In this document: positions 7,860 through 9,322 of the stretch, piece by piece | Layout of the letters: each line of letters opens with the position of its first letter | How positions within the stretch are numbered: the first letter of the stretch is position 1 | IMG/VR virus record: IMGVR_UViG_3300025151_007895 | Location: 1-25,524 of that record | Reading direction: 5' to 3' (one strand) | From: a virus | Length of the DNA stretch: 25,524 nucleotides | Made by a program: the position numbers and the translations under genes | Notes under the pieces: generated by a model | The model's input: the letters and a program-made list of their open reading frames with translations, nothing else | Told to the model about the DNA's origin: nothing | The model's database searches: none

Positions 7860-8225
7860 AGTGCAACTATTCTGTTCCTAGGTTAGTTGCCAACCCGACA
7901 GCATTATGCCGCTAAGGCGTAATCTGAAGGTGCAAAATTATCGTTTGCATTTGTGTTTTGTAAACTTGCCTATATGTCGAAACCTATTTCGCCCCCATCA
8001 TAAACACACTAGGATCAACATAGCCTAGTGCATATGCTATTCCCATTTCTATACCTAGTAAGACTACAAGTCCTAAGACTGCAACACTTACTGCCATAGG
8101 TAGAAATATAAAGTCTTTCCAAGTTCTTTTTCTTGTGCAACAACTACTCAAGTTATCTCCAATGTGTTTATGGTGGAGGCGTCCGGTACCGCCCCGGAGT
8201 CCATATAAACGTTCTAACGCTTACC
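7860..8225 (-). ncRNA. ssrA: permuted two-piece (alphaproteobacterial-type) tmRNA
   Basis: Transcription order is acceptor piece, intervening segment, coding piece. Acceptor piece (about 8215-8171): GGAC, T-stem TCCGG/CCGGA around a 7-nt loop GGCGGTA, then CGCCTCC-A-CCA with CCA encoded. Coding piece (about 7996-7860): starts GGGGGCG, which pairs with CGCCTCC including a G3-U70 wobble, the alanine identity element. Then comes the conserved GGTTTCGAC, the tag frame at 7948-7904 (ANDNFAPSDYALAA plus stop), and an H-type pseudoknot with stem GCAACTA/TAGTTGC (7890-7884 with 7869-7863). A helix between pieces, CATATAGGC (7976-7968) with GTTTATATG (8210-8202), confirms the two halves belong together. 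It rescues stalled ribosomes and tags peptides for proteolysis. The alpha-type permutation points to the host lineage. Exact piece ends are estimates. Confidence 0.93.
7984..8151 (-). CDS. possible 55-aa membrane protein inside the tmRNA intervening segment
   Basis: The spacer between the two tmRNA pieces is about 174 nt and holds an open frame with a TTG start at 8151, five bases after GGAG. It encodes a basic N terminus with CC (SSCCTRKRTWKD), one strong hydrophobic helix (about residues 14-34) and a short tail, and it ends in TAG inside the 5' end of the coding piece. The ordered layout of SD, basic segment and helix argues for a real protein. The non-ATG start and overlap with the RNA argue against. 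No family is recognised. Confidence 0.4.
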   Translation of the reverse strand: MSSCCTRKRTWKDFIFLPMAVSVAVLGLVVLLGIEMGIAYALGYVDPSVFMMGAK

Positions 8226-8228
8226 CTC

Positions 8229-8259
8229 TATTTATAACATAAAAGAAAAAGGATGTCAA
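8229..8259 (-). promoter_or_regulatory. strong tmRNA promoter with overlapping T4-late-like box
   Basis: The minus strand has TTGACA (8259-8254), a 17-base spacer, and TATAAA (8236-8231). The -10 is part of TATAAATA (8236-8229), the exact T4 late-promoter core, so both host-type and late transcription could start here. The predicted start is just before the tmRNA acceptor piece. The importer operon downstream may be read from the same promoter. Confidence 0.75.
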
Positions 8260-8271
8260 TCTTTTATATTT

Positions 8272-8348: not shown

Positions 8349-9215
8349 ATGACGCAACTAATCTCACCCACAAAGTTCACTAAGACAGTTGGCCTTTTAA
8401 GGTCATTTTTTTTGGACAAAGGTTTTGAAGAAGTACACACTCAAAACAGACTTTCAATACTTGCCGCTTGTGAAGATCCATTCAATGTAGCAACTTACAA
8501 TTACGCAGGCCAGGTGTGGCCGTTGCCGCAAACAGGCCAAATGTGGTTAGAACACGAATTATTAAGTAGCCCCGATAGTAAGGGGTTTTTTTGTGTCTCC
8601 ACTTCCTACAGACAGGAACCAAATGCGATTCCAGGCAGACACGATATAATATTTCCAATGTTTGAATTTGAATTTCCTGGCACTATTGATGATCTTAAAG
8701 CAATGGAATATGAATTGTGCGAGTATTTAGGTTTTGGTAATATTACAGAAAAAACCTACGAAGGTTGGCAAAGACATTATAACTTAGATGCAAATGCAGA
8801 ACTAGAAGCAGAACACGAAAATGCTATGGGCAAAACATTTGGGCAAGCAATGATAACAGATTTTCCAGAATTCACTTCACCATTTTGGAATATGAGTAGA
8901 TACGATAATGGAGTTCATAGTAAAAAAATTGATGTTATATTAGGTGGTATGGAAACTATTGGAAGTGCTGAACGTAGCACAGATGTAGAAATGATGCGTG
9001 ACACTTTTCATACTATCACAGATGGAGCATATAGTAATTTGCTATACGAACTATTTGGAAAAGATAGAGTTGAAGCAGAACTTGAAAAGTTTTTAGAGTT
9101 TGATTTCTTTCCTCGCGTTGGCGGTGGAATAGGAATGACAAGAATGATAGCGGCTCTGGATACAAGAGTGCAAGACAAAGATCCATTTGTCAAAGCAGTG
9201 GCCGCTGTAGCTTAG
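8349..9215 (+). CDS. stand-alone class IIb aaRS-like catalytic domain (AspRS/AsnRS-like)
   Basis: A 288-aa protein with the class II synthetase core: motif 2 (SYR88QE90 then GRHDIIFPMFEFE), the AsnRS/AspRS-like segment DVILGGMETIGSAERSTD (about residues 195-212), and motif 3 with GGGIGMTR265. The upstream segments ACEDPFNVATY and TGQMWLEHELL also align by eye with AsnRS. The usual N-terminal OB-fold anticodon-binding domain is missing (AsnRS/AspRS are about 430-600 aa). Known core-only relatives include asparagine synthetase A and archaeal AsnRS-like paralogues that make amino acids, and others that modify RNA or proteins. The start at 8349 follows AAGGAG. It is the only plus-strand protein gene and is followed after 6 bases by a tRNA, so the two are probably co-transcribed. 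Confidence 0.85.
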   Translation: MTQLISPTKFTKTVGLLRSFFLDKGFEEVHTQNRLSILAACEDPFNVATYNYAGQVWPLPQTGQMWLEHELLSSPDSKGFFCVSTSYRQEPNAIPGRHDIIFPMFEFEFPGTIDDLKAMEYELCEYLGFGNITEKTYEGWQRHYNLDANAELEAEHENAMGKTFGQAMITDFPEFTSPFWNMSRYDNGVHSKKIDVILGGMETIGSAERSTDVEMMRDTFHTITDGAYSNLLYELFGKDRVEAELEKFLEFDFFPRVGGGIGMTRMIAALDTRVQDKDPFVKAVAAVA

Positions 9216-9221
9216 AGTTAA

Positions 9222-9322
9222 TCTGGGGTGGTGGAAAAGGTAGACACGCACGACTGTTTATCGTGTGGTAGATGTACTGCAATATATTTACCGTGTAGGT
9301 TCGAGTCCTACCCCCAGAGCCA
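9222..9322 (+). tRNA. tRNA with GUU (Asn) anticodon and very long variable arm
   Basis: A complete cloverleaf. Acceptor stem TCTGGGG/CCCCAGA (9222-9228 with 9312-9318), discriminator G (9319), CCA encoded (9320-9322). D arm GTG/CAC with GG-T-A in the loop. Anticodon stem CACGA/TCGTG (9249-9253 with 9261-9265). Loop CTGTTTA puts GUU at 9256-9258, the Asn anticodon. T arm GTAGG/CCTAC with loop TTCGAGT. The variable region (9266-9294) forms a 10-bp stem, GGTAGATGTA/TATATTTACC with two G-U pairs and a 6-nt loop. Normal tRNA-Asn has a short variable loop; long arms belong to Ser, Leu, Tyr and Sec tRNAs. Position 37 is U rather than the A expected for t6A. G73 fits Asn or Ser, not Leu. Confidence 0.88.

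Follow-up and report, generated by a model that had tools for sequence, protein, structure and literature searches.

AsnRS carries an OB-fold anticodon domain besides its class II catalytic core, whereas several described paralogues of the synthetases consist of the core alone. The archaeal AS-AR and the bacterial AsnA are core-only AspRS/AsnRS paralogues recruited to metabolism; the anticodon domain is likewise missing from EpmA/GenX and GluQ-RS, core-only synthetase paralogues whose targets are EF-P or queuosine. To our knowledge, neither EpmA/GenX nor GluQ-RS is paired with a tRNA gene of its own. In bacteria, the identity determinants of tRNA-Asn are GUU and G73 (PMC9976931), the amidation of Asp-tRNA-Asn requires U1-A72 (PMC9976931; PMC4206432) and, in yeast, t6A37 prevents aspartylation (PMC9976931; PMC4206432). 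Some phages are known to carry tRNAs whose changed anticodon loops let them escape anticodon nucleases (van den Berg 2023, eLife, PMC10264068). In open-access papers, we found no phage AsnRS/tRNA-Asn pair and no cyanophage synthetase.

The window, i.e., the whole stretch of DNA analysed, is a 25.5-kb viral contig (25,524 nucleotides), a marine phage fragment with a class Ia ribonucleotide reductase. It holds an AsnRS-like gene, which ends in TAG, and, after a spacer of 6 nt (AGTTAA), a tRNA gene [Table 1]. The first-pass annotation had described this pair as a core-only enzyme next to a class II tRNA with GUU, G73 and a 10-bp variable arm, in a plus-strand island of a minus-strand region; our analysis confirmed the adjacency and the anatomy, and the genes flanking the pair are indeed on the minus strand. 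The tRNA scored 47.5 bits with the Rfam tRNA model, against a gathering score of 29 bits, and the ARAGORN label 'Asp(atc)' is a mislabel because the 29-nt variable region misleads the tool. PADLOC gave no defence match.

Table 1. Coordinates of the AsnRS-like gene, the tRNA and its parts, and the small OPRT-like gene in the window.
Feature	Position	Strand	Remark
Core-only AsnRS/AspRS-like protein, 288 aa	8349..9215	+	PHROG 29758; homologue of the P-SSM2 'tRNA ligase'
Codon of E68, AsnRS-type pocket Glu in QTGQMWLE	8550..8552	+	AspRS has Lys
Class II tRNA-Asn(GUU), 101 nt, CCA encoded, Leu-like body	9222..9322	+	
Acceptor 5' strand UCUGGGG	9222..9228	+	U1 pairs with A72 (9318); U1-A72 in 99/99 distinct tRNAs
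Anticodon GUU	9256..9258	+	Kept in 99/99 distinct tRNAs
U37	9259..9259	+	Family: U37 90/99, C37 2/99, A37 7/99
Long variable region with 10-bp hairpin	9266..9294	+	
Discriminator G73	9319..9319	+	99/99 distinct tRNAs
Small orotate-phosphoribosyltransferase-like protein, 138 aa	3103..3519	-	Best profile and fold matches are orotate PRTases

The cultured cyanophages P-SSM2, P-SSM5 and P-SSM7 carry a 'tRNA ligase' protein with an adjoining tRNA-Asn of 85-86 nt; the P-SSM2 record places its tRNA-Asn elsewhere, yet one sits 9 nt 3' of the ligase gene. In the GenBank records of P-SSM2 and P-SSM7, the same pair appears as two separate annotations, 'tRNA ligase' and 'tRNA-Asn', and neither a link between the two nor a function is given. 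Scans of IMG/VR returned at least about 600 stretches with the protein, and the pair was found in hundreds of contigs. The tRNA was located directly 3' of the enzyme gene in 153 of 169 phage loci, mostly with a gap of 4-12 nt, and 7 of the 16 loci lacking it stop at a contig edge. Reciprocally, a scan by the characteristic anticodon-arm pattern found the enzyme just upstream in 104 of 110 places; the remaining 6 tRNAs lie within 108 nt of the sequence end, and no tRNA without enzyme was found among the 110 places where the sequence suffices. The first-pass annotation had suggested searching related phages for the same pair and had counted it as a refutation if homologous genes never co-occurred with the tRNA; their co-occurrence is near-constant, as would be expected of an orthogonal aaRS-tRNA pair. 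Since the protein is also under purifying selection (almost every pairwise dN/dS lies at about 0.02-0.12), the pair is not a product of chance. In the tree, the phage proteins that come with the tRNA group into a single supported clade, inside which tRNA-less members are nested as losses, and one protein (L178) is placed elsewhere, though it has the same kind of tRNA. Four distant viral members (L083, L084, L166 and L167; 45-49% identical) have no tRNA nearby, and two named records among the distant members are 484 and 735 kb in size.

The window protein matched Pfam tRNA-synt_2 (1.7e-14) and shows motifs 1-3 of a class II catalytic core. The absence of an anticodon domain, pointed out in the first-pass annotation, is borne out by the predicted model (pLDDT 92.3), which covers only the catalytic core of AsnRS/AspRS, without the OB-fold, and aligns with core residues 233-532 alone of the 8h53 chain. 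The best structural match of the model is human AsnRS with Asn-AMP (Z 26.9, 250 residues, rmsd 2.5), followed by AspRS, EpmA (Z 23.7) and archaeal asparagine synthetase A (Z about 23), in a VIA-align structural table that leaves room for other class II core families. In an alignment with Brugia AsnRS and with AspRS, TGQMWLE follows the AsnRS form, which has Glu, and not the AspRS form, which has Lys, and the pocket Glu E68 is invariant in 71 diverse family members. None of the curated NCBIfam families takes the protein in. The asnS models (TIGR00457, NF003037) gave at most 28 bits against cut-offs of 342-414, the cut-offs of the AsnA-type models (including TIGR00669) were not reached either, and NF005055 'asparagine synthetase A' gave 22-24 bits against 389, with matches from two cellular homologues only. 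The protein is best explained as a core-only AsnRS paralogue from a family not described before; this family shares with AsnRS the core fold, the class II motifs and the pocket Glu but lacks the OB-fold, falls far below the asnS cut-offs and is linked to pyr genes.

The core-only architecture and the match to AS-AR structures would also fit a simple asparagine synthetase like the archaeal AS-AR, to which the tRNA would be an unrelated passenger. This is quite improbable. In the alignment, the pocket Glu is of the AsnRS type, as opposed to an AspRS-type Lys; the family is a different sequence family from AS-AR and AsnA, all curated AsnA-like models being far below cut-off; and it coexists with AsnB in most carrier genomes (13 of 20). 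An asparagine synthetase would, moreover, leave the loss of pyrB and carB (see below) and the pairing with a tRNA in phages unexplained.

The window tRNA has an acceptor stem UCUGGGG/CCCCAGA with U1-A72, an anticodon stem-loop CACGA-CUGUUUA-UCGUG, which gives a 7-base loop with anticodon GUU and U37 in place of A37, and a variable arm GGUAGAUGUA-CUGCAA-UAUAUUUACC of 10 bp. Both hairpins appear when the strand is folded (z = -2.9). Across 99 distinct tRNAs of the family, the variable regions range from 11 to 37 nt, and their hairpins average 5.9 bp against 3.3 bp in shuffled sequences. In most of the cases tested, the closest body is that of a tRNA-Leu from the same phages, in keeping with the Leu-like D-loop pointed out in the first-pass annotation. 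All 99 tRNAs combine the GUU, G73 and U1-A72 of bacterial tRNA-Asn, whereas the A37 and the short variable loop typical of it are lacking: purine 37 was lost in 92 of 99, and C33 occurs in 6 of 99 (C33 in place of U33 was seen at L068, L069, L072, L092, L124, L125, L130 and L159). The other tRNAs of the same phage loci kept purine 37 in 94 of 94 and U33 in 95 of 95 distinct sequences. Judging by this conservation pattern, the invariant positions appear to be those read by the host's charging and amidation enzymes, and the lost ones those needed for decoding, although the strict conservation of GUU can also be explained by decoding. The phage tRNA thus shares the determinants GUU, G73 and U1-A72 with the substrate of tRNA-dependent Asn synthesis (ND-AspRS and GatCAB), but it is class II, Leu-like and U37-bearing, and we propose it as a donor, not for translation. 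Anticodon-loop changes are held in common with the nuclease-resistant phage tRNAs; here, they come with a dedicated synthetase-like partner, the loss of purine 37 and a non-canonical body.

Among the determinants of Ser identity are G73 and a large variable arm, and replacing A73 by G73 can convert a tRNA from Leu to Ser identity (PMC9976931). It had been suggested that host SerRS might charge the long-arm tRNA and insert Ser at Asn codons, in the manner of allo-tRNAs. This we consider very improbable. In the window, NrdA uses an AAT codon for its catalytic Asn, the invariance of U1-A72 and GUU, which are Asn charging and amidation determinants, would lack a reason, and the AsnRS-like neighbour gene would be pointless. 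Besides, a 7-bp acceptor and a 5-bp T stem fit all 99 tRNAs, and this ordinary 7/5 branch is not the 8/4 or 9/3 branch of allo-tRNAs.

The main rival is an orthogonal translation pair, in which the core-only enzyme would attach Asn to the class II tRNA, host AspRS/AsnRS would be kept off by the long arm (or the lost OB-fold), and the tRNA would read AAY codons once the host's own tRNA-Asn has been cleaved or runs short. The near-obligate pairing, the AsnRS-type pocket, the invariance of GUU despite an enzyme without anticodon domain, and the precedent of phage tRNAs that evade anticodon nucleases through altered loops (PMC10264068) speak for such a pair. Nevertheless, U37 and C33 should impair decoding and exclude t6A37, while the other phage tRNAs all have purine 37. 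The protein is strongly acidic and has no added tRNA-binding part relative to its tRNA-less cellular homologues, and these homologues, the pyr operons and the replacement of pyrB/carB would be left without explanation. We therefore regard orthogonal charging, which the first-pass annotation had put forward, as an unlikely reading and not as the first choice.

A scan of genome contigs yielded 125 relatives in Patescibacteria, Bacteroidota, some Proteobacteria and others, the cellular homologues being 51-63% identical. In the 80 loci read, no tRNA was found beside the gene except in four viral-looking contigs (L169, L170, L171 and L178), and a search for a class II GUU tRNA elsewhere in 27 carrier genomes gave 5 pattern matches against about 18 for the reversed control, which does not support the presence of one. 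Among the neighbours in 77 cellular loci, DHODH-like genes occurred in 28, OPRT/OMPDC in 21 and either of them in 34, whereas the next family occurred in 10; in 43 of the 77, no pyr neighbour was located within 4 kb. Four full operons, three in Midichloriaceae-type loci and one in a Rhodospirillaceae locus, have the synthetase-like gene (RS), OMPDC, OPRT and DHODH in a row, which links the family to pyrD, pyrE and pyrF. In a Pasteurella atlantica chromosome (L233:3604-6892), OMPDC and a small OPRT come after the family member, DHODH lies upstream of it on the opposite strand, and pyrB, pyrC_multi and carB are all below cut-off. A family member was also seen in a genome of the TGA-recoding SR1 lineage (L237, G014), with in-frame TGA in AsnRS and other frames.

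Over the cut-off, the 20 carrier genomes had pyrB in 1, carB in 1 and pyrC_multi in 0, against 14/14, 14/14 and 11/14 in the control genomes, though many carriers are reduced or fragmentary MAGs in which pathway genes may be missing for other reasons. Since many carrier genomes are small, we also compared matched genomes. Within the order of Aureispira, the family occurs in 8 of 249 genomes; pyrB was present in 0 of 8 carriers against 17 of 20 non-carriers, and carB likewise, the 17 including in each case one genome with cut or split genes (Fisher p 5e-5 each, a value that ignores shared ancestry although the carriers cluster). This pattern is indicative that the family replaces pyrB and carB. 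As many carriers possess both AsnRS and AsnB, the gene is explained there by neither charging nor free Asn synthesis. The family probably works in pyrimidine synthesis and not primarily in translation.

Pyrimidine genes also occur in the phage loci. Both in other phages and in the pyr operons of cells, homologues of the small OPRT of the window directly adjoin the RS gene. Two phage loci (L013 and L022) have DHODH-RS-tRNA-OPRT on one strand, L178 has RS-tRNA with DHODH nearby, and RS-DHODH (L058/L060) and RS-OPRT (L063) occur without the tRNA. Only about one phage locus in ten has DHODH or OPRT within its short flanks, and no DHO_dh gene was found in P-SSM2, P-SSM5 or P-SSM7. Against the phage record collection, the small OPRT gave no match as query and DHODH only distant matches (33% identity or less). 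Anti-defence or plain codon compensation stays among the candidate roles of the pair, but it would leave these pyr links unexplained. The link of the enzyme to pyr genes and the lack of a tRNA beside the cellular enzyme could also reflect two separate functions, a pyrimidine enzyme and a host-charged, nuclease-resistant tRNA-Asn offsetting the asparagine drain; the host determinants in the tRNA are intact (PMC9976931). This is improbable, for the tRNA tracks the enzyme almost perfectly and not the phage tRNA arrays, and its decoding loop is degraded.

Because the cellular homologues need no private tRNA, the role of the tRNA would have to be phage-specific. The neighbour genes agree best with the suggestion of the first-pass annotation that the pair may carry an activated amino acid for some other purpose. 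From the observed pairing, tRNA anatomy, operon links, replacement pattern and AsnRS-type fold and pocket, we infer a reaction, a direction of tRNA use and a host pathway. Asparagine and one CO2 carbon are enough to make dihydroorotate, which is the cyclic ureide of asparagine, and aminoacyl adenylates react with CO2 to N-carboxyanhydrides. The enzyme would activate asparagine as Asn-AMP, CO2/bicarbonate would turn this into the N-carboxyanhydride, and the side-chain amide nitrogen would attack the latter, closing the six-membered ring to dihydroorotate. This proposed reaction, Asn + HCO3- + ATP -> dihydroorotate, we hold with slightly more doubt than belief. Its product would feed the same DHODH, OPRT and OMPDC steps as CarAB, PyrB and PyrC, and since AsnRS chemistry alone is used, it would explain their loss, with a single synthetase-like protein standing in for all three in the carrier genomes. 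In phages, host-charged Asn-tRNA would hand its asparagine to the enzyme by an AMP-dependent reversal of the transfer step, and the phage would thereby draw on tRNA-dependent asparagine synthesis; such a donor role for the tRNA is tentative, somewhat more so than the reaction. A pyrimidine enzyme working from asparagine, together with a host-charged tRNA that is a donor and not a normal decoder, is our best explanation of the whole, albeit a tentative one. The full chain, in which phages build the pyrimidine ring from tRNA-bound Asn by host Asp-charging, amidation, delivery to the core-only paralogue and CO2-dependent closure to dihydroorotate, is unlikely to hold in every step.

In open-access papers, we did not find an alternative dihydroorotate route. 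If the proposal is true, there would be a second pyrimidine route, without carbamoyl phosphate, aspartate transcarbamoylase or dihydroorotase, in which one tRNA-synthetase relative replaces three classical enzymes, distributed among Patescibacteria, Bacteroidota, some Proteobacteria and a great many ocean phages. We know of no earlier case of a virus tRNA gene kept for nucleotide synthesis and not for decoding, and the phage version would be the first. Even with another reaction, the near-obligate partnership, across hundreds of marine viruses, of a core-only AsnRS paralogue with a non-canonical tRNA-Asn calls for an explanation, and the long-standing question of what purpose tRNAs serve in phages becomes directly testable in P-SSM2-type cyanophages.

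The window has other features outside the pair, all on the minus strand. A permuted two-piece tmRNA of the alphaproteobacterial type is located at 7860-8263 (Rfam 70.7 and 71.6 bits), which ARAGORN missed, and tmRNAs are also present in related phage loci (L056, L058/L060, L077, L078 and L079). A complete ABC transporter (NMT1/THI5-like binding protein, ATPase and permease) is carried by the phage at 5394-7849, adjoining an arylsulfotransferase-like protein and with two oxygenases (2OG-Fe(II) and TauD families) near, and a DoxX-like protein is encoded next to a plastocyanin-like protein at 209-1056.
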